64,000 nucleotides of DNA from Lutibacter oricola. Its GTDB lineage: Bacteria; Bacteroidota; Bacteroidia; Flavobacteriales; Flavobacteriaceae. The stretch covers positions 1 through 64,000 of the forward strand of contig NZ_FNNJ01000012.1 of NCBI RefSeq assembly GCF_900106565.1, read 5' to 3'. This document shows, one piece after another, positions 36,165-56,465 of this stretch (positions are counted from its first letter, which is position 1; each line of letters starts with the position of its first letter). Below the pieces are notes generated by a model, which saw only the letters and a program-made list of their open reading frames with translations, was not told the DNA's origin and did no database searches. Position numbers and translations under genes: made by a program.

Positions 36165-36210
36165 TTATTGGTGGTTTTGTTTTGGTAAAGGTAAATATTT
36201 TAAATGAGAA

Positions 36211-36294
36211 GTCTGGAGTCTGGAGTTTGGAGTCTGGAGTCTGAAGTCTGGAGTTTGAAGTTTGGAGTTTGAAGTTTGAAGTCTGGAGTGAGAA
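36211..36294. repeat. Heptamer array (GTCTGGA/GTTTGAA)
   Basis: Exactly twelve 7-bp units: GTCTGGA, GTTTGGA, GTCTGAA and GTTTGAA variants and a final GTGAGAA. GTGAGAA is the reverse complement of the TTCTCAC register of the other family. Confidence 0.9.
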
Positions 36295-36584
36295 GTGAAT
36301 TTCTAATTGTCATTCTGAATGCAACGCAGTGGAATTGAAGAATCTTACGTTTCAACAATTCAACTGTCATTCCTACGCAGGCAGGAATCCATTATGAGTT
36401 TAGCTTAGAAGCATACTTTTATACTAGATCATTAAGCAGAGTCGAAATAATAGTCTCAACTTGTCATTCTGAATGCAGCGAAGCGGAACTGAAGAATCTC
36501 ACGTTTTTATTGTAAAAATACGTCCCATTACAGTCGAAATGACAATGAGGTTACTTTAGACTGCTGACTTAAAACATTGCAACT

Positions 36585-36799
36585 GTCATTCCTACGCAGG
36601 CAGGAATCCATTATAAGTTTTACTAATTAGTTTACTTTTGTTCTTTTCCATTGATGAAAAGAACCAAAAATCTAGTCTGATGATATTTTCATTAAAATAC
36701 AGTTCCTTAAAAAAGACATGCGCTGAACTCGCTGCGCTCAAACACCACCGCCTGTTTCTTTTTCTTCGGATGTATTTTCTACTGAAAATTTCATAGGAC
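36585..36799 (+). repeat. 215-bp dispersed element, copy 9
   Basis: Exactly 215 bases; it begins GTCATTCCTACGCAGGCAGG, with the same internal hairpin and the same CATAGGAC end. Confidence 0.92.
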
Positions 36800-36948
36800 G
36801 CTCTTCTCTTTTTTAGGTCATTGAGCGGAGTCGAAATGATAGTCTCTACTTGTCATTCTGAGAGCAGCGAAGCGGAATTGAAGAATCTCACGTTTTTATT
36901 GTAAAAATACGTCCATTACAGTCGAAATGAAGCGAGGTTACTTTAGAC

Positions 36949-37025
36949 TCCCACTTCTCACTTCTCACTTCTCATTTCTCACTTCTCACTTCTCATTTCT
37001 CACTTCTCACTTCTGTCTTCTCACA
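36949..37025. repeat. Heptamer array (CTTCTCA)
   Basis: About eleven units of CACTTCT and CATTTCT, with the standard junctions on both sides. Confidence 0.88.
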
Positions 37026-37178
37026 CCAATATGCTCATTAAGCAGAGTCGAAATAATGTTCTCACTTGTCATTCTAAATGCAGCGCAGCGGAACTGAAGA
37101 ATCTCACGCTTCAATTGTAAAAAAATGCGCTGTTCCAGTTGAGTAGACAAACGTGGTCATTGAGCGGAGTCGAAATGA

Positions 37179-37248
37179 TCAGCAACCAAATACCAGCAAC
37201 CAACAACCAAACACTAACAACCAAACACCAACAACCAAATACCAACAA
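37179..37248. repeat. Degenerate heptamer array reaching a stop codon
   Basis: Exactly ten 7-bp units (TCAGCAA, CCAAATA, CCAGCAA, CCAACAA, CCAAACA, CTAACAA and so on) start at GTCGAAATGA and end one base before the PL6 stop codon (CTA at 37250-37252 on the plus strand). Confidence 0.9.
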
Positions 37249-37249
37249 C

Positions 37250-39667
37250 CTACTCACTCCCCAAATACACCCCAATATTTTCAATTCCATTATTAGCTTT
37301 TAATAAAATAGATTTTTTATTTGGGATATAATGCTTTGCATCTTCCCATTTAGGATTTTTAGTGTAAATGTGTGCTTTGGAAGCCATTCCGCTTATTTTT
37401 GGAGTTCCGCAGGTATAAATCAACGTGTTTTTAACGCTATGGTTTGCAGCAGCTAGTTTAAAAGGAGTTTTAAGGTTGTAGCTTTTTTCGAAAATAGAAT
37501 TGGTAATTTCTACGGTATCTATTCCTGAATTTTTTAGAATGTATCCTTTTTCAGTATCGTATACTTTACTAAAAATACAGTGGTTAATACTTAGTTTTCC
37601 GCCTTTATTTACAAAGTAGTTTCCAGCTTTGGTGTAGCTTACAGCAAATTGTTCCATATTTTTAAAAACACAGTACTCGAGTGAAACGCTACCTGCATTG
37701 TAGTTTCCTGTTGTTCCTTTTTCATACGATAGGTTTAGGCCTCTGTAACTATCTTCAAAAAGACTATTTTTAATAGTAATTTCATTAGCAAACGTACCTA
37801 CATAAGCTTTAAAAATGCTACCACCATTTTTGTTTTTAAAATTTCGAAAAATGCAATTAGAAATTGTTAATGTGTATGGTGCTTTTTCGTTCTCGTTTGG
37901 TGATACAATAGCGTATTTAACCAATTTGTTATGTTGTCCGCTAAGTGTTACATTTTCTAAGTTAAAATTGCAGTTTTCTTGCACTCTAAATAAATAGCTC
38001 AAAGGTTTTTCTAACTTGGCGTTTGCTTTGATAAACACGCTGTCTTTATGTACACCAATAATATGGATTGATTTTTTTAACTGTACAGAATTTTTTAAGA
38101 AATAAGTACCAGATTCTAAAGTTAAGGTACTACCAGCAGCCGCATTTTTAATGGCTTTTTCTAAGGTGCCTACACCAGGTTTAACAGTAGCAATGTTGGT
38201 TGTTGGTTTATTATTGGTTGGTATTGCTACTGTTGGTTTCCACGAAAGTGGCCCTGATTTACTAAGTATTGCACTTGGTATTTTTTGGTTATTTAAATTA
38301 AAAGCACCAGCAACTAAATTAGTTCTAGTTGTATTACAAATGTCTGTACTAGGACTTTGCTTGTTATAGTTAGAAACGGTTAAAGCTGTATTGTTAGCGG
38401 TTGGCATTGGTAACGATTTTAATAATTGCCATTCTATAGCCGCTTTTGTAAAATAATCTGAATTTATTTCAGCTGTAGTTTCTCCAATATTACCTTCAAA
38501 AGTAATTTTAGCGTTTGCATCGTTTAAATCTAATAGCTGTTTTCCGTTTGTATTAGATACTAAATTGTTTACAAAGCTAGAGTTGATTGGTGCTAACGAT
38601 TTCTCGCTGTCTTTTCCTGCTCCAATAACTATTGTACCACAATTAATAATAGTATTGTTTTGCACCAATACATCTTCAACTTGATGATACCTGTTTAAAG
38701 GAGAGTTTGGGACACCGTTCATAAATACAATAGGAGCTCTATAATCATCTCCAGTTAACCCAATTAAAAAATTATTTTGAACAATATGTCCTTTGTTAAT
38801 GATGCGAATACCTCCAGTTCTAGGTTTGTTGTTACCTATAAATACATTGTTTTCAACCAGGGCATTGTTACCATGTCTAAGTGTTAAAGTACCTTCAGAT
38901 TCTAGAAATAAATTGCTGTTAAAAATATTATCACAAGATTTGTTAGAGATAATTTCAATTTCGCCGTTGCACTGTTTAAAAGTGTTGTAGGCAACGGTGG
39001 TTTTAGAAGATTTTAGCGAGTTGGTACTTGTACCAATTCGAATAGTTTCTCCTCCATTTTCGCCTAAATCAGGTCTAAAACCAAAAAAATTATGATCTAT
39101 TTGATGGTTGTTTTCAGTATGTTCGTCGCCTTTTAGCCAAACTACTAGAGTGCTACCAATATTTGTTTTACCTGTAAAATTACAATGATCAACTCTATTA
39201 TTTTTTCCCCATAAATCTACCCAATGTGTTTGGAAAGTGACATCGGTAGGGTTGTAGTTGCTTATGGTGCAATTGGTTACTCTACAATTATTAGCAAAAT
39301 TTTTAGAATCTTTTCTAAAACTAATAACAGATTTTGAGGTTGGTATACCATTTTTAAACCATAAACCATTAATTATAAGATGTTTTCCGGCTATAGTTAA
39401 GCTAGAATTTCCTGTAAAAATTACTTCCCCATCTGTTTGTGCTGTAATTATTATTGGGCTTTCTTTAGTTCCATTAGCAATGGCTAAAAGTTGTGCATTT
39501 TTCCATTCACCATTTTTTAATACAATTTCGCTACCTGGTTTTGCATTTTTAAGTGCATTTGTAAATTCAGTTTCAGTAGCTACTAATGTTGAGTAAGAGG
39601 CCTGTGTATACATTTTTGTACAAAAACTTGAAACAATAAACAGTGTAATAAGAATGTTGGTTTTCAT
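37250..39667 (-). CDS. PL6 alginate lyase, secreted form
   Basis: An 805-residue right-handed beta-helix lyase. The catalytic lysine and arginine lie in CNGEIEIISNKS (Lys243) and LTLRHGNN (Arg264), with the 21-residue spacing of PL6 enzymes. GGETIRIGTS is the calcium-region motif. A second beta-helix part (about 490-805) gives the longer two-domain PL6 form. The signal peptide (MKTNILITLFIVSSFCTKMYTQA) looks like type I rather than a lipoprotein signal, unlike the partner at 39817. It should depolymerise alginate or MG blocks. It is divergent from the second PL6 and shares a compact symmetric promoter region. Confidence 0.92.
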   Translation of the reverse strand: MKTNILITLFIVSSFCTKMYTQASYSTLVATETEFTNALKNAKPGSEIVLKNGEWKNAQLLAIANGTKESPIIITAQTDGEVIFTGNSSLTIAGKHLIINGLWFKNGIPTSKSVISFRKDSKNFANNCRVTNCTISNYNPTDVTFQTHWVDLWGKNNRVDHCNFTGKTNIGSTLVVWLKGDEHTENNHQIDHNFFGFRPDLGENGGETIRIGTSTNSLKSSKTTVAYNTFKQCNGEIEIISNKSCDNIFNSNLFLESEGTLTLRHGNNALVENNVFIGNNKPRTGGIRIINKGHIVQNNFLIGLTGDDYRAPIVFMNGVPNSPLNRYHQVEDVLVQNNTIINCGTIVIGAGKDSEKSLAPINSSFVNNLVSNTNGKQLLDLNDANAKITFEGNIGETTAEINSDYFTKAAIEWQLLKSLPMPTANNTALTVSNYNKQSPSTDICNTTRTNLVAGAFNLNNQKIPSAILSKSGPLSWKPTVAIPTNNKPTTNIATVKPGVGTLEKAIKNAAAGSTLTLESGTYFLKNSVQLKKSIHIIGVHKDSVFIKANAKLEKPLSYLFRVQENCNFNLENVTLSGQHNKLVKYAIVSPNENEKAPYTLTISNCIFRNFKNKNGGSIFKAYVGTFANEITIKNSLFEDSYRGLNLSYEKGTTGNYNAGSVSLEYCVFKNMEQFAVSYTKAGNYFVNKGGKLSINHCIFSKVYDTEKGYILKNSGIDTVEITNSIFEKSYNLKTPFKLAAANHSVKNTLIYTCGTPKISGMASKAHIYTKNPKWEDAKHYIPNKKSILLKANNGIENIGVYLGSE

Positions 39668-39769: not shown

Positions 39770-39777
39770 TATATTTG
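39770..39777 (+). promoter_or_regulatory. Promoter -7 element for the rightward PL6 gene
   Basis: TATATTTG, 40 bases before the ATG at 39817. Its last bases are the first bases of the operator at 39774. Confidence 0.7.
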
Positions 39778-39801
39778 GTAAACCAAACTGGTAAACCAAT
39801 T
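39774..39801 (+). promoter_or_regulatory. Operator site 1, presumed GntR (FadR-type) binding
   Basis: Two adjacent palindromic boxes, TTTGGTAAACCAAA and CTGGTAAACCAATT, just downstream of the rightward -7 element. FadR-subfamily regulators bind TGGT...ACCA sequences. A site here would block the rightward promoter and lie close to the leftward one. Confidence 0.7.
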
Positions 39802-39816
39802 TAAAATATAGTTAAA

Positions 39817-44546: not shown

Positions 44547-44577
44547 TATATTTGGTAAACCAAACTGGTTAACCAAT
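44547..44577 (+). promoter_or_regulatory. Promoter and operator site 2 before PL17
   Basis: TATATTTG (44547-44554) runs straight into TTTGGTAAACCAAA and CTGGTTAACCAAT. The geometry is the same as at 39770-39801, base for base around the junction. Confidence 0.72.
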
Positions 44578-44637
44578 ATTAGATGTTATCGATGTCTTTT
44601 AAAGCCTAAGTTTTGTTGTAATTTAAAAAGGATAAGA

Positions 44638-47450: not shown

Positions 47451-47494
47451 TATATTTGGTAAACCAAATTGGTGAACCAGTTTGGATAACCAAA
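47451..47494 (+). promoter_or_regulatory. Promoter and operator site 3 before susC
   Basis: TATATTTG (47451-47458) runs into TTTGGTAAACCAAA, then TTGGTGAACCAG, then TTTGGATAACCAAAA. This is the same arrangement as sites 1 and 2, with a third degenerate box. Confidence 0.72.
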
Positions 47495-47564
47495 ATAAAA
47501 GAACAAATTAGTAATTTTTTAACCAAACCTTAATTATTGAATTAGATGAAAAAATAACAAAAAA

Positions 47565-47654
47565 AAAGGATAGTTGCACCTATCCTTTTAGAGTTTACTT
47601 CATTTCAGAGGGAAGTAAAACGTAATGAGTCATTTCTCAAAAACTCATAACTAC
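47565..47654 (+). ncRNA. Candidate cis-regulatory RNA, copy 1 (susC leader)
   Basis: An 8-bp stem AAAGGATA/TATCCTTT with loop GTTGCACC (47573-47580), exactly 19 bases, then GAGGGAAGTAA (47608-47618), then ATAACTAC (47647-47654). The copy at 54995-55095 has the same loop, the same 19-base spacing and the same two blocks, but a completely different stem sequence. It lies about 105 bases after the operator-promoter and 138 bases before the susC ATG. No known riboswitch class was recognised. Confidence 0.6.
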
Positions 47655-47701
47655 AAATATAGTAATTAAAATATATTAATTAAAGTTATTGTTTTTGAGA
47701 A
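47634..47701 (+). promoter_or_regulatory. Long-range hairpin in the susC leader
   Basis: A perfect 11-bp inverted repeat, TTCTCAAAAAC (47634-47644) and GTTTTTGAGAA (47691-47701), encloses an AT-rich loop with ATAACTAC. It could be an alternative fold with the candidate RNA upstream, or an RNA-stability element. Confidence 0.45.
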
Positions 47702-47791
47702 GTGAAGACGCTTTTAAGATGAAAATCTATGCTAAAATTAATACCTCACGAAGTATTAATAAAATTAACACTTAGAACAAAAATTAATATT

Positions 47792-50700
47792 ATGAATTTA
47801 AAATTTAAGTTAACCATTATTGCAGTAGTATTGCTTAATTTTACTATGATGGCTCAAAGTAGCTATTTGCTAAAAGGTACCGTGGTTTCTAGTACTGATA
47901 ATTCGCCAATTCCTGGCTCGAGTATCATTATTAAAGACACTACAAAGGGAACTACTACAGATTTTGACGGAGTATTTGCGTTGCAAGTAAAGCAAGGTGA
48001 TGTACTACAAGTTTCATTTATAGGATTTGAAACTAAATTAATTACAATTACAAACCAAAAAAACATTTCAATTTCACTAGCGGAAGCTCAAAACGTGCTA
48101 GATGAGGTTGTTGTAATTGGTTATGGAACATCAAAAAAATCTCATTTAACAGGAGCTATCTCTAAAGTAGTAAATGAAGATTTAGATCAAGTTGCTGTTT
48201 CTAGGGTAGATGATGCCTTAGTTGGGCAAGTATCAGGGGTAAACATTCAGGCAACTGAAGGTGAAGCTGGTTCTGCACCAACAATTAGAATTAGAGGTAC
48301 AGGTTCAATTACAGGAGATTCTAGTCCATTAGTTGTAGTGGATGGAGTTGTAGTTGATGCTGACTTTTTAGGGTCTTTAGATATGAATGATGTAGAATCT
48401 TTTGAAGTATTAAAAGATGCTGCTTCTGGTGCAATCTATGGATCAAGAGGGGGTAACGGAGTTATTATGATTACTACTAAAAGTGGTAAAGATGGAGAAA
48501 CAAAGTTTAACTATAGTACTTATATAGGTTATAAATCTGCACACCAAAGTGATGCTTATAACTTAACATTAGAAGAAACAGCTGCTGCAGAGTTAGCTGC
48601 AAACGGTGTTTTATCTGATAAAACAATCTACAAACAATTAATAAATGCTAAAACTAACTGGCAAGATGTAATTTTTGACGGTGGTGTTATTAATAACCAT
48701 TCATTTAGTGCACGTGGTGGAAACGAAAAATTAAAATTTAGTACAGCTTTAAATTATTTAAATGATCAAGGTGTATTATTAACAGATGAGTACCACAAAT
48801 ATAGTGTAAAAGCTAAAGTTGAATATAAGTTTACAGATAGATTTTCTATGGGACTTAGTGTAACTCCTTCACATACAAAAAGAAGAAGATTCGATGGTTC
48901 TGCACATGATATTTTACGTCAACCATCTTGGTTACCAGTTTATGTAAATGAAGATAATATTCAATATGTAAATAGAGTTAGAGATAATGCAAAATATGCT
49001 GATGTAAAAATAGGAGACTATGCAACTCAACGTATGTTTGATGATTATGATTTAGTAAATGGAGTACCAGTAACTTCAGGAACAGATATTAGTAATACTT
49101 CAAATACAAATCCAGCTGCTAAAATTTTAGAGCGTAAAAGAATGGATTATAAGTATAAAGTAGTAGGTAGCTTATTTGCTAAATACAAAATTAACGACGA
49201 TTTAAGTTTTAAGACTACAGCGTCTGGAGACCGTCAATACACTAGACAATCTAGATATCAAGGTGTTTTAGCTCATAGAAATGGAGCAAGTAACTCTCAA
49301 TTAGATAGTACAAACATTAGATCTTTTCACTTAGCATTAGATAATGTATTAATGTATAACAAAAATATTGGAGATCACGATATTAGTGCTGTAGTTGGTG
49401 CTTCTGCTGAAAAAACAAAGTATGAGTATGAAACTATTAGAGGTAGTCAGTTTGAAGATGATTCATCTCAAATTATAGCTTCAGCAGCTGAAATTAGTGA
49501 GTCTACAGGATATGAGTATGAAAACACGTTAATGTCTTTCTTCGGAAGGGTAAATTATGCGTATGCTGATAAATATTTAGCTTCATTTAGTGCAAGACGT
49601 GATGGTAGTTCTGTATTTGGTCCAGATACTAAGTATGGTAATTTCTTAGCAGGTTCATTAGGTTGGAATGTTTATAAAGAAGACTTTTTAGCTGATAGTG
49701 ATGTTGTAAGTAACTTAAAATTAAGAGTAAGTTATGGTGTAACAGGTAATAATAGTTTCGAAACGACAGGTGGAGATTTACAAGATAACTTCCCTTACTT
49801 AGCTTTATTAACTACTGTAAATACTTCAGCAGTTGTAGATGGTACTGTAACTGATGCGGTTAACCCGTTAAATATTGCAAATAGCGAATTAGGTTGGGAA
49901 CGTTCAATTGAATTTAACCCTGGTATTGACTTTGGTTTTTATGATAATGTTGTTTCTGGTTCTATTGATTTTTATACAAGAACTAGTGATAAATTATTAT
50001 TAGATAACCCTGTTTCTACAACTACAGGATTTAGCAATGCATTAGTTAATATTGGTGAAGTTCAGAATAGAGGTATTGAAGTTGAATTACGTACTAGAAA
50101 CTTTTCTAGAGACAACTTTAAATGGACAACAACTTTAATTGCTTCTAAAAACGAAAATGAATTAACAGATTTTGCTGATTCTAATGGTCAAATTCAAAAT
50201 GTAGATGCAAAAAGAGCTGCAGAATGGATTAACTTAGAAGGTCAACCAATATCTTCATTTTATGGTTGGGTAGTAGATAGAGATATTCCATTAGAATACC
50301 TTTCTAATCCTTACCATCCAGTAGGAGCAGAAGCTCAGGATGTATATGTAAAAGATTTAAATGGTGATGGTTTAATTGATGATGATGATAAAACGATAAT
50401 TGGTAATCCATACCCAGAATTAGTATGGAGTGTAACAAATGACTTTAAAATTTCAAATTTTGATGTAAGTTTTATGTTCCAAGGAAGTCACGGTGCTGAG
50501 GTTAGAAATATGGGAGACCAATATATTTTCAATCACTTTAACAGTGCACAAGATTTTATTTCTTCAACACCAGATCAGGAATTTATTAAACAAAAAATAT
50601 TTACAAATGATATAGTTCAAGATGCATCATACATTGCATTAAGAAACGTAAATATTGGGTATAACTTTAAGGAGTCTGCATTAAGTAATTTAGGAATAAC

Positions 50701-50872
50701 TAAATTAAGAGTGTATGCTTCTGGTCAAAACTTAATGTATTTAACAGCTGATGATTACACAGGATTCAATCCAGAATCTATTTATGACACAAGTGCAACA
50801 ACTTATGGTTACCAAAGAGCTGGTTCTCCAGTTTATAGTACAGTGTCGTTAGGTGTAAATATTGACTTTTAA
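47792..50872 (+). CDS. susC: SusC/RagA-type TonB-dependent outer-membrane transporter
   Basis: 1026 residues from the ATG at 47792, which yields a proper signal peptide (MNLKFKLTIIAVVLLNFTMMAQ); the open frame begins earlier at 47729 but that extension is not signal-like. A CarboxypepD_reg-like domain (KGTVVSSTDNSPIPGSSIIIKDTTKGTTTDFDGVF) is followed by the SusC signature VVVIGYGTSKKSHLTGAIS, the plug with RIRGTGSITGDSSPLVVVDGV and SGAIYGSRGGNGVIMITTK, and a C-terminal barrel ending in ...GVNIDF. It imports alginate oligosaccharides with the SusD partner 28 bases downstream. Its leader is long (about 330 nt) and structured. Confidence 0.95.
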   Translation: MNLKFKLTIIAVVLLNFTMMAQSSYLLKGTVVSSTDNSPIPGSSIIIKDTTKGTTTDFDGVFALQVKQGDVLQVSFIGFETKLITITNQKNISISLAEAQNVLDEVVVIGYGTSKKSHLTGAISKVVNEDLDQVAVSRVDDALVGQVSGVNIQATEGEAGSAPTIRIRGTGSITGDSSPLVVVDGVVVDADFLGSLDMNDVESFEVLKDAASGAIYGSRGGNGVIMITTKSGKDGETKFNYSTYIGYKSAHQSDAYNLTLEETAAAELAANGVLSDKTIYKQLINAKTNWQDVIFDGGVINNHSFSARGGNEKLKFSTALNYLNDQGVLLTDEYHKYSVKAKVEYKFTDRFSMGLSVTPSHTKRRRFDGSAHDILRQPSWLPVYVNEDNIQYVNRVRDNAKYADVKIGDYATQRMFDDYDLVNGVPVTSGTDISNTSNTNPAAKILERKRMDYKYKVVGSLFAKYKINDDLSFKTTASGDRQYTRQSRYQGVLAHRNGASNSQLDSTNIRSFHLALDNVLMYNKNIGDHDISAVVGASAEKTKYEYETIRGSQFEDDSSQIIASAAEISESTGYEYENTLMSFFGRVNYAYADKYLASFSARRDGSSVFGPDTKYGNFLAGSLGWNVYKEDFLADSDVVSNLKLRVSYGVTGNNSFETTGGDLQDNFPYLALLTTVNTSAVVDGTVTDAVNPLNIANSELGWERSIEFNPGIDFGFYDNVVSGSIDFYTRTSDKLLLDNPVSTTTGFSNALVNIGEVQNRGIEVELRTRNFSRDNFKWTTTLIASKNENELTDFADSNGQIQNVDAKRAAEWINLEGQPISSFYGWVVDRDIPLEYLSNPYHPVGAEAQDVYVKDLNGDGLIDDDDKTIIGNPYPELVWSVTNDFKISNFDVSFMFQGSHGAEVRNMGDQYIFNHFNSAQDFISSTPDQEFIKQKIFTNDIVQDASYIALRNVNIGYNFKESALSNLGITKLRVYASGQNLMYLTADDYTGFNPESIYDTSATTYGYQRAGSPVYSTVSLGVNIDF

Positions 50873-50899
50873 TAAATAAAATTAAAAATTTAAAGTATT

Positions 50900-52327
50900 A
50901 TGAAACAAATAAAATTTTTAACATTACTAATTTTAGCGGTATTTATATCTTCTTGTGAAGACGATTTCTTATCGCCAGAGTTAGTGTCTGCAGAAAATGG
51001 GGATACCTATTATGCAAATGACGCAGAGATTGAAACAGCAGTTGTTAATATATATGATGGAGTTCAAGGAGTTAATCAATTAGAACTAACAAGTTCAGGT
51101 TTAAACTATGGAGTTCAAAATGAGTATTATTTAACTGAAATGAGAAGTGATAATACTCGTACAAAAAGTAGTGAAGGTGAAGCAGCTCAATTTGAGAACT
51201 ACACTTTAGAGTCTACAAATGGTATAGTATTAAACTATTACAGAAGTTATTATAACATTATTTTTAGAGCAAATACAGTTTTAGAAAATTTAGATGCTGC
51301 TACTGATAGTGGAAAAGTAAAATTTGAAGCTGAAGCTAAATTTTTAAGAGCATATGCTTACTTTAATTTAGTACGTTTATTTGGAGACGTTCCTTTAGTT
51401 GATAAATTAATTAACCCAGCAGATACTGAAACATCATTTACAAGGGTTGCAACATCAACTATTTATGAATTAATAGTAGCTGACCTTCAAACTGCTGCAA
51501 GTGGTTTAACTGATGGTTCTAAAGATAGAGCATCAAAATCTGCTGCTCAAACTTTATTGGCTAAAGTATATTTAACTTTAGGTAATTACGGAGATGCTAA
51601 AACACTTTTAGAATCTGTAATGTCTAGTGGTTTTACTTTGCAAGATAATTTTGTAGATTTATTTTATACAGAGCGCAATAGTGAAATTATTTTTGCTATT
51701 GGATATGAAGCTAGTGATGTTTACAATAGCCAAAATTTTTCTGCAGAATGGTTAAACGCTGTTGGTAGAACAAGTGGTGTAAATTACGTAACTGATGATG
51801 CTGTTGCAGCATTAGATGCAATGGGTGGAAATAGAGCAATGTATTCTTATAGAATAGACCCTGCACAAGTAACACAACATCAAGTGGTAAAATACTTACC
51901 AAATGGAGACGAAGACTTAGGAATTCCTGTAACTTCAGGAGATCCAACTTCAGCAGGAAATGACTGGATAGTTTTACGTTATGCAGATGTGTTGTTAATG
52001 TATGTTGAAGCTGTAATGGCAGGAGCAGATGCAACTTTAGATGCAAGTGCTATTGAAGCTTTTCAAAAAGTAAGAGATAGAGCTGGATTAACAGATACAG
52101 TAACTAGTATTACAAAACAAGAATTGTTAGACGAAAGAAGAGTAGAATTAGCCTTTGAAAACCACCGTTTATTTGATTTAATACGTTTTGGGGTTGCTCA
52201 AGAAGTATTGTCAGCGTTTTCAAGTGCAAATGGATATTCATTTTCAGCTACAGATTTATTATTACCAATTCCTCAATCTGAGATTGGGTTAAGTAATGGT
52301 GTGTTAACTCAAAATCCGGGTTACTAA
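50900..52327 (+). CDS. susD: SusD/RagB-type surface glycan-binding lipoprotein
   Basis: A 475-residue lipoprotein (MKQIKFLTLLILAVFISSC). TPR-like helices (FEAEAKFLRAYAYFNLVRLFGDVPLVDK), WIVLRYADVLLMYVEA and ELAFENHRLFDLIRFG are classical SusD sequences. It caps the SusC barrel and captures alginate oligomers at the cell surface. It is translated from the susC transcript, with a SusC-SusD gap of 28 bases. Confidence 0.95.
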   Translation: MKQIKFLTLLILAVFISSCEDDFLSPELVSAENGDTYYANDAEIETAVVNIYDGVQGVNQLELTSSGLNYGVQNEYYLTEMRSDNTRTKSSEGEAAQFENYTLESTNGIVLNYYRSYYNIIFRANTVLENLDAATDSGKVKFEAEAKFLRAYAYFNLVRLFGDVPLVDKLINPADTETSFTRVATSTIYELIVADLQTAASGLTDGSKDRASKSAAQTLLAKVYLTLGNYGDAKTLLESVMSSGFTLQDNFVDLFYTERNSEIIFAIGYEASDVYNSQNFSAEWLNAVGRTSGVNYVTDDAVAALDAMGGNRAMYSYRIDPAQVTQHQVVKYLPNGDEDLGIPVTSGDPTSAGNDWIVLRYADVLLMYVEAVMAGADATLDASAIEAFQKVRDRAGLTDTVTSITKQELLDERRVELAFENHRLFDLIRFGVAQEVLSAFSSANGYSFSATDLLLPIPQSEIGLSNGVLTQNPGY

Positions 52328-52361
52328 GTTTATTAATAGTAATAAATTAAAACATTTAGAA

Positions 52362-53216
52362 ATGATTAAAATTAAAAATAACATAAAGCAATTAAAGAGT
52401 CAGGTAATTATGGCTTCACTTTTAGTGATGGCAGTAGTTATGACATCTTGTGATTTTGAATTTGACTTACCAGAAGAAGGTAGTATAGCAGATTTAACAC
52501 CACCTACAGCAAGTTTTGAATCAAAAGTGAGCCCTGAGAATAATTTGAAAATTAATTTTACAAACCTATCAGGAAGTTCAACAGATTATGTTTGGGAGTT
52601 TGGAGATGGTAATTCATCAACAGATAAAGAACCTTCTCATACATATGATGCAATAGGAACTTATACAGTAATGCTTACAGCTACTGATAAAATTGGTGCT
52701 AGTAGTTCTGTTACAGGAGAGGTTATAGTTGAAGAAAAGCAAGTAATTAAACCAGAAATTTTAGAAGCAGGATTTGAAGATAACACGCTTCCTGATGGAA
52801 CAGGTGATGGTAGAGATTCTTGGAGAAATGATTTTGGTGGAGTAATTCAAATTACAAGTAGCCCTGTAAATGGTGGAACTCAAGCAGCTAAATTTCCTTC
52901 TGCAGGTGATAGAGTTGGACATCAAGAAGTTTTAGCTACTCCAGATACAGATTATATACTTACATACTATTACACTATGAAAACTTCTGGTACAGGTAAC
53001 TTAACAGTTAGAGTATTAGGTGGTTCTATAAGTGATTTAGATGAAGCAGATGGAGCTACGTTAGCTTCACATGTTGGAACAAATCAAGATAGTTCTAGTA
53101 CATATGTAAAAGTTGAAATTCCATTTAATACAGGATCTAATAGTGTTGTTGGAATATTAATTACAAATGAAGGAGTTGAGAGTAGAGTAGATGATATGGA
53201 GATTACAATAAAATAA
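52362..53216 (+). CDS. PKD-domain surface lipoprotein, probable alginate-binding protein
   Basis: A 284-residue lipoprotein with a long signal ending MAVVMTSC. Residues about 45-125 are a PKD domain (YVWEFGDGNSSTDKEPSHTYDAIGTYTVMLTATD). The C-terminal 150 residues (GFEDNTLPDGTGDGRDSWRNDF...TQAAKFPSAGDRVGHQEV...VDDMEITIK) look like a carbohydrate-binding beta-sandwich. Its position directly after susD is that of SusE/F-like surface glycan-binding proteins. I infer alginate binding; there is no catalytic motif. Confidence 0.78.
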   Translation: MIKIKNNIKQLKSQVIMASLLVMAVVMTSCDFEFDLPEEGSIADLTPPTASFESKVSPENNLKINFTNLSGSSTDYVWEFGDGNSSTDKEPSHTYDAIGTYTVMLTATDKIGASSSVTGEVIVEEKQVIKPEILEAGFEDNTLPDGTGDGRDSWRNDFGGVIQITSSPVNGGTQAAKFPSAGDRVGHQEVLATPDTDYILTYYYTMKTSGTGNLTVRVLGGSISDLDEADGATLASHVGTNQDSSSTYVKVEIPFNTGSNSVVGILITNEGVESRVDDMEITIK

Positions 53217-53231
53217 AGTTTGGTTAATAAA

Positions 53232-54128
53232 ATGAGTAATTTCCGAAGTCATATAGCAATCTTATTAGTATTATTCACATTAAATGTAAGTTGTCAAGAT
53301 AATGATAAGGATGAAATTATAGCTGTTGAAGTTGAAGAGGAAATAGATGTGCCTTCGGAAATTACTTATAAATTACCTAACATAGATTTAAGTCATTGGA
53401 AAGTAACACTTCCTATTGGGAAACCAACAGAAGTTTTACCTCCAGAGATTTTAAAATATGCAACTAATGAAACATTAAAGCCGTTTATGTATAACGATTC
53501 TATTAATGGAGCTTTAGTTTTTTATACCTATCCAGGAGAAACAACTGCTAATACATCATATTCAAGAACTGAATTAAGAGAATTAATGAATCCTGAAGAT
53601 GGTGGAACAACCAATTGGACTTTTGCTGAAGGAGGTTATATGAAAGGAACACTATCTGTTCCTGAAGTTTCTAAAGATGAAGATGGAAAATTTCATAGAA
53701 CCATTATAATGCAAATTCATGGAAGGTTAACAAACGAGCAGCGAGATTTAATAGGAGAAGATGATAATAATGCACCTCCAATATTAAAAATATATTGGAC
53801 GTATGGTTATGTAAGAGTTAAAACAAAGGTTTTAAAAGATTTAGATGCAACACCAACTGAAATTTTATATACGGATGCTTGGGGTGATGATGAAGGGTAT
53901 ACGTTTCCTACATATGTAGGTCATGATAAATTTACCTTAGAGGTTAAAGTTTCAGAAGGAAAAATGGAGGTTATATTAAATGAAAACGAATCTAAAGTAT
54001 ATGATGATATTCATATAGAGAAGTGGAATGTTTTTGAAAATTATTTTAAAGCAGGTAATTATTTAGTTTCAACAGACGAAAATGCATTTGCCAAAGTAAA
54101 TTATTATAATTTAAATATAACACATTAA
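53232..54128 (+). CDS. PL7 alginate lyase, lipoprotein
   Basis: 298 residues from the ATG at 53232, which puts the lipoprotein signal MSNFRSHIAILLVLFTLNVSC at the start (a TTG at 53220 is possible). All three PL7 motifs are present: SYSRTELRE (residues 109-117), IIMQIHG (158-164) and NYFKAGNYL (270-278). They form the jelly-roll active site; QIH is common in guluronate-acting PL7 enzymes, but specificity is not proved. It is the last gene of the SusCD operon and probably acts at the cell surface. Confidence 0.95.
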   Translation: MSNFRSHIAILLVLFTLNVSCQDNDKDEIIAVEVEEEIDVPSEITYKLPNIDLSHWKVTLPIGKPTEVLPPEILKYATNETLKPFMYNDSINGALVFYTYPGETTANTSYSRTELRELMNPEDGGTTNWTFAEGGYMKGTLSVPEVSKDEDGKFHRTIIMQIHGRLTNEQRDLIGEDDNNAPPILKIYWTYGYVRVKTKVLKDLDATPTEILYTDAWGDDEGYTFPTYVGHDKFTLEVKVSEGKMEVILNENESKVYDDIHIEKWNVFENYFKAGNYLVSTDENAFAKVNYYNLNITH

Positions 54129-54162
54129 TAAAATGAAAAGAAGTTTAGTTAATAATTGAGCG

Positions 54163-54204
54163 AAAATTTCCGCCAATAAGTGTAAAATTATTGGTGGAAA
54201 TTTT
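54163..54204 (+). terminator. Long hairpin terminator after PL7
   Basis: A 17-bp stem AAAATTTCCGCCAATAA/TTATTGGTGGAAATTTT (one G:U pair) with loop GTGTAAAA ends in TTTT, 34 bases after the PL7 stop. Efficient termination or 3' protection of the SusCD-PL7 mRNA is likely. Confidence 0.78.
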
Positions 54205-54242
54205 AAAAAAACTTTGATTACAAATAAAATTTGTTAATTTTT

Positions 54243-54265
54243 GCCAATTAAACTGGTTTACCAAT
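54243..54265 (-). promoter_or_regulatory. Operator site 4 before gntR
   Basis: GCCAATTAA and ACTGGTTTACCAAT, the same box as sites 1-3 but on the opposite strand (ATTGGTAAACCAGT), 11 bases before the GntR start codon. It implies autoregulation. Confidence 0.65.
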
Positions 54266-54275
54266 ATTATAAAGT

Positions 54276-54980
54276 ATGAAATTAGATATTTTAACAAAAA
54301 ATGATAATAGAGTAGTTCAAAATTCAATCATTTCTCAAATAAGAGATCTAATTAATTTCAAAAATTTGGAACCCGGAGATAAACTACCTTCTGAAAGAAT
54401 GCTTTCTGAAAAGTTTGAAGTATCTAGAAACAACATTCGTGAAGCAATTCAAAAATTAGAATTTTATGGTTTATTAAAATCAATACCTCAAAGCGGAACA
54501 TTTATAGCTAATATAGGTGGGGTTGCTTTAAATGGTATGGTTGATGACATTTTAAGATTAGAAGATCCTGATTTTAAATCGTTAGTTGAAACCAGAATTT
54601 TATTAGAATTAAAAACAGCTAGATTAGCGGCTTTAAGAAGAAGTGAAGATGATTTAATTCAACTTGAAGAAGCTTTAAATGCTTATAAAGAAAAAGTATT
54701 GAATAGTGAAGATGCAGTTGAAGAAGATTTACTCTTTCATTTAGCAATTGCAAAAGCTGCAGGAAACAGTACTTTAAATACATTAATGTTAATGATAACA
54801 CCTGAAATTATTACAAACTTTGAAGCATATCATGTATGTGATAAAAGTCAAGCTAGAGCAGGTATTATTGAACATGAAAATATTTTTGAAGCAATTAAAG
54901 AGCAAGACCCTAAAAAAGCAAAAGAAATGATGAAAGTTCATTTTAGTGTATTATACCAATACTGTTATAGTAAAAAGTAA
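54276..54980 (+). CDS. GntR-family (FadR subfamily) transcriptional regulator of the alginate locus
   Basis: A 234-residue regulator. The winged helix-turn-helix is residues about 12-78 (GDKLPSERMLSEKFEVSRNNIREAIQKLEFYGLLKSIPQSGTFI). The C-terminal FCD domain (about 90-230) has the ligand/metal histidines in LLFHLAIAKAAGN, EHENIFEAI and MKVHFSVL. FadR-type GntR proteins in uronate pathways (UxuR/ExuR-like) respond to uronate intermediates. The operators at 39774, 44547, 47451 and 54243 fit its expected TGGT...ACCA site, so it is probably the repressor of this locus, with a KDG-pathway intermediate as inducer (inference). Confidence 0.9.
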   Translation: MKLDILTKNDNRVVQNSIISQIRDLINFKNLEPGDKLPSERMLSEKFEVSRNNIREAIQKLEFYGLLKSIPQSGTFIANIGGVALNGMVDDILRLEDPDFKSLVETRILLELKTARLAALRRSEDDLIQLEEALNAYKEKVLNSEDAVEEDLLFHLAIAKAAGNSTLNTLMLMITPEIITNFEAYHVCDKSQARAGIIEHENIFEAIKEQDPKKAKEMMKVHFSVLYQYCYSKK

Positions 54981-54994
54981 TACCTAAATTTTAG

Positions 54995-55095
54995 TTTAAT
55001 AAGTTGCACCTTATTAAATTAAAAAAAGAAAATAAAGGAGGGAAGTAATCGGTAAACTGCATTTACTGTGTAATTTAAATATTACCAATAACTAC
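54995..55095 (+). ncRNA. Candidate cis-regulatory RNA, copy 2 (MFS permease leader)
   Basis: An 8-bp stem TTTAATAA/TTATTAAA with loop GTTGCACC (55003-55010), exactly 19 bases, then GAGGGAAGTAA (55038-55048), a small hairpin GTAAA/TTTAC, then ATAACTAC (55088-55095). It shares loop, spacing and both blocks with copy 1 (47565-47654) and differs in the stem. It lies 74 bases before the ATG of the permease gene. Confidence 0.6.
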
Positions 55096-55169: not shown

Positions 55170-56465
55170 ATGAAAATAAAAGGATTAAGATGGTGGGTAA
55201 TTGCTTTAATAGCTTTAGCAACCGTAATTAACTATATAGACAGACAAGCTCTTGTAGTTTTATGGCCTAGTATATCTGAAGATCTATACCCAGATAAAAC
55301 AATGACAGAAAGAAAAGAAATCTATGCACTAATTTCTGTAGTGTTTATGTTTTCGTATGCTTTCGGACAATCAATTTTTGGAAAAATATTTGATAAAGTT
55401 GGTACTCGTATTGGATTTGTTTTATCAATTGGTTTTTGGTCTCTTTCTACGGCGCTACATGCGTTGGCAAAAGGTGTATTAAGTTTTGCGTTTTTTAGAG
55501 CAATTTTAGGAGTTTCAGAAGCAGGAAACTGGCCTGGAGCAGCTAAAGGTAATGCAGAATGGTTTCCGGCAAGTGAAAGAGCCTTTGCACAAGGGTTATT
55601 TAATTCTGGAGCAGCTATTGGTGGAATTGTTGCCATACCAACTATTGCGTATTTAACAGTTCATTTTAGTTGGCAAATGATTTTTGTTATTATTGGACTT
55701 ATCGGTTTACTATGGTTAGTTCCTTGGTTATTTATCGTAAAAGCTCCACCAAAAAGTCATCCTTGGTTAACTGATGAAGAAAAGAACTACATATTATGTG
55801 GTCAAAAAGAAGAAGTTGAAGAAACTGATGATGTTGATGAATATAACCCGCCAGTGAAAGAATTACTTTCTCGTAAACAAAGTTGGGGTGTTATTATAGC
55901 ATCAGCAGCAATTGACCCAATATGGTGGTTATTTGTATTCTGGATTCCATTATACCTTTCTGAAGTATATAATATGGACGTTAAATCTATTGGTATCTAC
56001 GGATGGGTTCCTTATGTAGGAGCAATGTTAGGTGCTTGGTTTGGTGGTTTATTAGCTCAAAACAGGTTAAAAGCTGGTTGGAATGTAAATAAAACACGTA
56101 AAATGGTAATAACTTTAGGTTGTATTATTATGCTTCCTGCATTATTAGCTTTATCAAATCCAGGATCTCCAATTGCAGCCGTTTTAATTATGGCAGCAGT
56201 ACTTTTCGGATTTCAAACAGCAATTGGTAATGTACAAACACTTCCAAGTGATTTATTTGGTAAGAAAACAGTAGGAACACTTTCTGGTTTTGCTGGTACG
56301 GCAGCCAAATTAACAGGAGCAGGTTTAGTAGCATTGGTACCTATGTTAACAGCAGGTGGTAATTATACTCCAGCATTTATTATTGGTGCAGCGTTAGCGT
56401 TTATTGTATTTGCAAGTGTTTGGGTTCTAATACCAAAAATAGAGGCGCTTAAGCCAAAACAATAA
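55170..56465 (+). CDS. MFS permease of the hexuronate/ACS family (DEH/KDG or uronate uptake)
   Basis: A 431-residue transporter with 12 helices. It has the anion:cation symporter N-terminus MKIKGLRWWVIALIALATVINYIDRQALVVLWPSI and the ExuT-like FRAILGVSEAGNWPGAAKGNAEWFPASERAFAQGLFNSGAAIGGI. The family takes up hexuronates across the inner membrane; in alginate loci it carries alginate-derived monomers or short oligomers. It is followed 45 bases later by the DEH reductase gene. Its leader carries the second copy of the candidate RNA element. Confidence 0.92.
   Translation: MKIKGLRWWVIALIALATVINYIDRQALVVLWPSISEDLYPDKTMTERKEIYALISVVFMFSYAFGQSIFGKIFDKVGTRIGFVLSIGFWSLSTALHALAKGVLSFAFFRAILGVSEAGNWPGAAKGNAEWFPASERAFAQGLFNSGAAIGGIVAIPTIAYLTVHFSWQMIFVIIGLIGLLWLVPWLFIVKAPPKSHPWLTDEEKNYILCGQKEEVEETDDVDEYNPPVKELLSRKQSWGVIIASAAIDPIWWLFVFWIPLYLSEVYNMDVKSIGIYGWVPYVGAMLGAWFGGLLAQNRLKAGWNVNKTRKMVITLGCIIMLPALLALSNPGSPIAAVLIMAAVLFGFQTAIGNVQTLPSDLFGKKTVGTLSGFAGTAAKLTGAGLVALVPMLTAGGNYTPAFIIGAALAFIVFASVWVLIPKIEALKPKQ

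Follow-up and report, generated by a model that had tools for sequence, protein, structure and literature searches.

The alginate locus of Lutibacter oricola appears to encode a small antisense RNA with a second target in another transcript of the same locus. The locus lies on a 64,000-nucleotide (nt) stretch of contig NZ_FNNJ01000012.1 (positions 1 to 64,000; the window) and reads as an alginate locus from its translated genes, with names aided by the accessible text of PMC8286568. We put the probability at about 0.85, on comparative sequence evidence, that an RNA designated S is a cis-antisense RNA of the leader of susC, the outer-membrane transporter gene, and also pairs in trans at two sites with an element, M, in the transcript carrying gntR and the MFS inner-membrane transporter gene. 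S would be transcribed across the susC leader in the opposite direction and be fully complementary to it. In the first contact, the loop of the S terminator hairpin would kiss the loop of the M hairpin; in the second, CCUCC of the S P2 hairpin would pair with GGAGGG just downstream of the M hairpin. By mimicking the susC leader, M would bring the inner-membrane importer under the same RNA. At the sequence level this is supported by the strand of each RNA, a promoter box, a terminator, the co-change of the loops and the constraint lost where M is missing. We infer that S is transcribed, that it binds M and, by analogy with the DonS RNAs of Bacteroides, that it lowers both importers when alginate is scarce.

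S is predicted to span 47559..47649 on the minus strand (about 91 nt, both ends predicted). It comprises a 5' hairpin (ATGAGT...ACTCAT, 47625..47648), the P2 hairpin (47594..47619, arms UUUACUUC and GAAGUAAA, with CCUCU of the second contact in its loop) and the P1 terminator hairpin (47564..47589), which has the first-contact loop GUGCAA and is followed by a U-run. A 92-nt stretch folds into three predicted hairpins (-22.7 kcal/mol). Among 75 copies, the P1 stems read on the plus strand contained 55 C-A mispairs and one G-U (12 against 1 over 16 distinct arm pairs) and the P2 stems five C-A and no G-U, whereas the M stems of 73 loci contained 49 G-U against 18 C-A on the plus strand (Fisher P 6e-18 for the difference in strand signature between S and M, kinship uncorrected). 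Apart from the recurring C-A, the S stems look like perfect helices; since such a C-A reads as G-U when the minus strand is taken, this indicates that the S helix is kept on the minus strand.

The same strand carries putative transcription signals. A -7 promoter box, TATATTTG, lies at 47654..47661 on the minus strand, and the sigma-A consensus of Flavobacterium psychrophilum is given as TAnnTTTG in the accessible text of PMC9723704. On the minus strand, 64 of the 75 S copies have this consensus 25-45 nt 5' of P2, compared with one of 75 when the plus strand of that stretch is read. The A-run that precedes P1 on the plus strand is the U-run of the terminator on the minus strand. Minus-strand helix, promoter box and terminator together indicate that S reads away from susC. 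In a minus-strand alignment of 56 sequences, with predicted RNA lengths of 80-103 nt, every pair of the consensus fold was broken in at most two. The 5' hairpin has different letters in relatives and its region is unpaired in the consensus fold. Over 64 sequences the P2 loop and the other S loop were predicted to be open (mean probability of being unpaired, 0.96 and 0.93, respectively). The -7 box of susC itself (TATATTTG, 47451..47458, plus strand) lies upstream of S, and the leader of susC is therefore expected to include the complement of S. Of the 40 loci printed (from 75 examined, as binned distances), 39 had TAnnTTTG on the plus strand at a distance of 54-129 nt upstream from the S loop.

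These results bear directly on the initial annotation, which had described the two leaders as copies of one cis-acting element and had offered a riboswitch, a protein-binding leader or a small RNA (sRNA) target as its nature. Under that explanation a common ligand or protein would read UGCAC and GGAGGG, and both copies would follow its changes. The covarying stems and the position of both copies before alginate transporter genes agree with it, and a hairpin also forms when the plus strand of the susC-side copy is folded. However, it is on the minus strand that the susC-side helix has been conserved, with a promoter box and terminator of its own, and the same structure is not maintained on the mRNA strand before both genes; furthermore, loss of M is accompanied by drift of the S loop, most of the remaining S being retained (see below). 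A single cis element is thus highly improbable. An sRNA target fits the evidence, and a ligand-binding riboswitch is not needed to explain it. The annotation was sound on the RNA nature of the element, its covariation, its tie to the transporters and its lack of an Rfam family, and erred in the anatomy; shared post-transcriptional control of both transporters is still the likely point of the element.

M lies on the plus strand in the gap between gntR (54276..54980, plus strand) and the MFS gene (55170..56465, plus strand). It consists of a hairpin at 54989..55024 with loop TTGCAC, the target of the first contact, and an anchor, GGAGGGAAGTAA, at 55037..55048, which is complementary to the P2 region of S and is the target of the second. 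The M loop and the downstream GGAGGG are complementary to two loops of S, and the M loop was predicted to be open (probability 0.89, 71 loci). With genes placed by tblastn, copies in relatives separated into S before susC (64-272 nt before the susC alignment; in locus L188, exceptionally, S precedes gntR) and M after gntR (26-41 nt after the gntR alignment, but 81 in L210 and 194 in L216; 141-254 nt before the MFS alignment). At six loci (L217, L224, L229, L236, L238 and L244), inspection by eye places the M hairpin across the gntR stop codon, so that M could be coupled to the translation of gntR. A small reading frame after GGAGG was dropped by eye, its start codon not being conserved, and no search was made for it.

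The pairing of the two blocks is not due to chance. The two blocks that the initial annotation had recorded in both leaders were recovered: GTTGCACC at 47573-47580 and 55003-55010, and GAGGGAAGTAA at 47608-47618 and 55038-55048, each 19 nt past an 8-bp stem. The two-block pattern occurred twice in the window against 0.00 expected (100 shuffles) and only twice in the 4.1-Mb assembly; a looser pattern found the same two only, and the reversed control none. Other details were revised. The stem-loops are real, but the loop is one of 6 nt (TTGCAC) closed by G-C, where 8 nt had been proposed, and the stems extend to 10 and 15 pairs. The equal 19-nt spacing is true of the two leaders in the window and was rejected as a general rule, as S and M spacings were not correlated over 71 pairs (Spearman -0.19, P=0.11). 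A third block, ATAACTAC, is present 39 and 50 nt further on in the window; it is not part of the conserved element because it occurs in only two of 75 M gaps and two of 75 stretches after S, the window being among both.

Relatives were collected by a search with the MFS protein, from which the best 80 of 355 loci were taken; 22 of 38 genomes of the genus had matches. Upstream of the MFS gene many relatives contained a hairpin with loop NUGCACN and GGAGGGAA downstream; the hairpin was visible in 12 of the 17 correctly oriented loci printed, including that of the window. In an alignment of 30 copies, ten pairs had each changed on both sides (covariation 0.537, against 0.09-0.28 for slid versions and with none of 500 shuffles reaching the score), which bears out the proposal of a repeated RNA with covarying stems. 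A covariance model (R1) matched 72 of 397 family genomes at E <= 0.01, and in 46 of these it matched two or three times. Further copies with compensatory stem changes exist in relatives, and these sit before susC and the MFS gene. By place and loop, 112 of 121 motif rows were S or M (L188 included) and nine were chance matches elsewhere.

If S is read on the minus strand and M on the plus strand, identical letters in the two copies correspond to complementary RNAs. Co-change was assessed at 75 loci with a gntR-MFS gap and an S found by pattern, identical gaps being removed; loci with S outside the fetched stretch, loci in which S was found by model alone (including L231, L247, L251 and L056) and L206 were left out. 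The S hexamers were TGCACG (52), TGCACA (14), CGCACA (3) and TGCACC (2), with TGTACC, TACACG, TGTACG and TTCATC seen once each. The hexamer recurred in M of the same locus at 72 of the 75 loci, or 73 with L216, whose M lies beyond the stretch searched, and this agreement spans seven different hexamers; one other locus, L243, had no M. When M was extracted independently of S, 71 of 73 hexamers were equal, compared with a mean of 38.5 and a maximum of 50 in 10,000 random redeals; the M of L223 was misread by the automatic extraction and its gap does hold TGCACA. A quickly built GntR tree places 18 changes of the hexamer in S and the same number in M. Across its starred branches, all seven independent contrasts for TGCACG or another hexamer agreed (sign test, P=0.016), as did 6.5 of seven for A or another base at position 6, with none opposed (median P=0.031). 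It is because the loops co-change within the same genome that the shared letters are taken as complementarity of two RNAs, and the co-varying hairpin loops are what a kissing sRNA and its target would be expected to have.

The anchor agreed at all 72 classifiable loci (GAGGG with GAGG at 58 of 58, GAAGGG with GAAGGG at 14 of 14; three unclassified), and the rare GGAAGGG is present in both copies of genome G281. Outside the 75, both contacts agree at L189, L228 and L246/L265. L217, L263 and L199/L200 have two S-type copies per locus, and at L217 only one of these matches the M loop. The contrast between stems and loops also bears on another account, in which S acts solely as a cis-antisense RNA of susC and its match with M is fortuitous, a relic, or a copy maintained by gene conversion. 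S is found also in genomes that lack M and so has a role of its own, which this account would predict. Copying would carry the stems as well, yet the M stems vary widely while the S stems are nearly constant, and loop and anchor alone agree and change together. We give this account hardly any credence.

Loss of M provided a further comparison. The S loop had drifted in eight of 11 genomes in which M was absent or decayed, as called by eye on printed gaps, whereas there was one mismatch among 77 cases with M (the 73 loci, three further loci, and L042 as the mismatch). The difference was significant (Fisher P 2e-8 for drift without M against 76 of 77 agreeing with M; counts made by hand, kinship uncorrected). 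Six of the drifted-loop genomes (L056, L241, L243, L245 with L264, L247 and L251) have no M after gntR. In the other two, G355 and G727, the drifted S loop was found first with R2, a minus-strand S model built from the 56 sequences, and the gaps fetched afterwards contained no M, as predicted. The survival of S without M indicates that S has its own function, most simply on susC. In L206 (genome G026, about 2337 and 10210) no MFS gene was seen after gntR; an intact S precedes a second susC, and the leader of the first susC has an S-like hairpin that has decayed, with a TGCACA loop as in the intact S; this hairpin is perhaps a trans target.

Several observations weigh against pairing of S and M as proposed. 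L042 is discordant by one base (TGCACC in S, TGCACA in M), L248 shares the hexamer but has a gap without GAGGG, and L231, G223 and G224 keep the S loop although the loop of the M hairpin has changed. At L112 and L115, GAGGG precedes a hairpin with loop CGCACA instead of following it. Besides the 18 C-A mispairs, the M stems of the 73 loci include 19 other non-pairs. Only 16 of the 72 inner branches of the GntR tree are starred, and the anchor changes just three times in S and four in M, with one contrast on starred branches; with so few changes, anchor agreement has little phylogenetic weight. GGAGGG in M was barely more open than background (probability 0.44 against 0.36, 71 loci), so that in the second contact CCUC of S is in a loop (0.96) while its partner is not clearly in one. 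Finally, 51-224 nt separate the end of the anchor from the MFS start codon (71 loci), and the two do not coincide. As M is far from this start, S may act on the stability or processing of the MFS mRNA rather than on ribosome entry.

The position of M also allows another direction of control. M could be mainly a sponge: once AusR, the GntR-type regulator, is released, gntR-MFS transcripts would soak up S and free susC, so that the operon would speed the induction of susC and would not itself be repressed. The anatomy would be the same, the transcript has its own operator-like repeat at 54239, and the M loop is a median of 22 nt past the gntR stop codon and 198 nt before the MFS start (72 loci). 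M would, however, need to rival S in amount, and in L210 and L216, which have extra DNA between gntR and M, M remains near the MFS gene, which favours the latter as the regulated gene. We regard the sponge as unlikely, and retain repression of both importers by S as the preferred reading.

Rfam had no match at gathering score for either leader stretch, in keeping with the remark of the initial annotation that no catalogued class was recognized. At E up to 10, every match of the two leaders fell far short of its cut-off; on the susC side, BTnc231 (minus strand, E 0.026, 21 bits against a cut-off of 80) and rliF (plus strand, E 0.035, 24 bits against 60) were rejected. A search of five relatives likewise gave no curated-family match. 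At E <= 0.01, R2 had matches in 15 of the 395 genomes of the phylum and in 11 of the 246 of the order, and all matches above 47 bits were within the family of the window. The weak matches beyond the family were read as plain terminators with no adjoining relative of susC or the MFS gene. The least clear, G835 (46.4 bits; same order, other family), has a terminator stem with CCCUC/GGGG arms wider apart and lies between two unrelated converging frames; it was provisionally taken as chance. A third weak R1 match in the genome of the window (G000:C29, 28.5 bits) lacks TGCAC and lies beside a frame read as an exonuclease, and was also attributed to chance, as were seven of the eight exact loop-plus-anchor matches among 199 family genomes, which lay outside this genome and were stemless by eye. 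Gammaproteobacterial loci with a related MFS gene had no R1 match at E <= 5.

The locus also contains lyase-like genes, a cupin gene, susD and genes for a PKD protein, a PL7-like lyase and an SDR protein, all gene names being read from translations and not from a protein-family search. The susC frame runs from 47792 to 50872 on the plus strand; its likely start, 47792, was inferred from relatives, which align from about residue 21 of a longer frame. The regulator is AusR-like by its translation, and AusR is a GntR repressor of alginate genes in Zobellia according to the accessible text of PMC8286568. Operator-like repeats, TTTGGTAAACCAAACTGGTnAACCAA, precede four genes of the locus (39774-39804, 44551-44581, 47455-47498 and 54239-54269) and are probably AusR/GntR sites. 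The repeats at the susC promoter (TTTGGTAAACCAAA..., 47455..47494, strand not assigned) were recognized from repeat families D5/D6 and from positions in relatives, and overlap the susC -7 box. AusR would control both transcripts at the promoter and S would form a second, shared layer. Elsewhere in the window, 36194-37253 is an intergenic region dense in short repeats (families D1-D4, D7, D8 and D10, including arrays spaced 14 and 21 nt), and two tandem tRNA genes with equal Rfam scores lie at 2166-2238 and 2302-2374 on the minus strand.

Elements of the proposed mechanism have precedents. OxyS and the fhlA leader meet at two separate contacts, and OxyS is trans-encoded; S would likewise make two contacts but has a cis partner, the susC leader, and a trans target that mimics it. 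In plasmid copy control, CopA starts pairing with CopT through hairpin loops and has this one fully complementary target, whereas S would have a second target keeping only loop and anchor. The closest likeness is to the DonS family of Bacteroides, described in the accessible text of PMC7366714 and PMC10994844 as RNAs of 78-128 nt encoded divergently to the susC homologue of a polysaccharide locus. S shares this orientation and size, being opposite and divergent to susC in all but L188, and is predicted from sequence to overlap the susC transcript. S is best read as DonS-like: antisense in cis to the susC leader, with a conserved target in trans. DonS is reported to affect susC homologues negatively (PMC7366714, accessible text), and both positive and negative correlations are given for antisense RNAs of polysaccharide utilization loci (PULs; PMC10994844, accessible text). 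Unlike DonS, S occurs in Flavobacteriaceae, matched no Rfam family and has a target in another operon with co-changing loops, while only cis pairs are described in the accessible text of the two DonS papers. In Bacteroides thetaiotaomicron, sRNAs base-pair with glycan-transporter mRNAs, as in the work on FopS and RbpB, and FopS seeds pair near susC start codons (PMC11697453, accessible text); S would use hairpin loops far from the MFS start and, unlike FopS, lies antisense to the leader of its own susC. In the accessible portions of the open-licence literature, no report was found of an antisense RNA in an alginate locus of flavobacteria, nor of any PUL antisense RNA with a target in trans.

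For the antisense RNAs beside susC known in gut Bacteroides, the question is what they do besides acting on their own susC. In the present case, sequence comparison by itself yields a candidate target in trans and both sites of contact, in a pathway for the degradation of brown-algal carbon. Loss of M amounts to a natural experiment in which the S loop tends to drift once its target is lost, and two-sided loop mutants make the question of S-M pairing directly testable. We see about even odds that a cis-antisense RNA has here recruited a second transporter, its leader evolving a mimic of the cis target in which the stems are free and loop and anchor are locked, with compensatory change across many flavobacterial genera. 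If so, the balance between outer- and inner-membrane importer would be set by a single RNA, and, as a sponge, the gntR-MFS transcript could in turn act back on susC.

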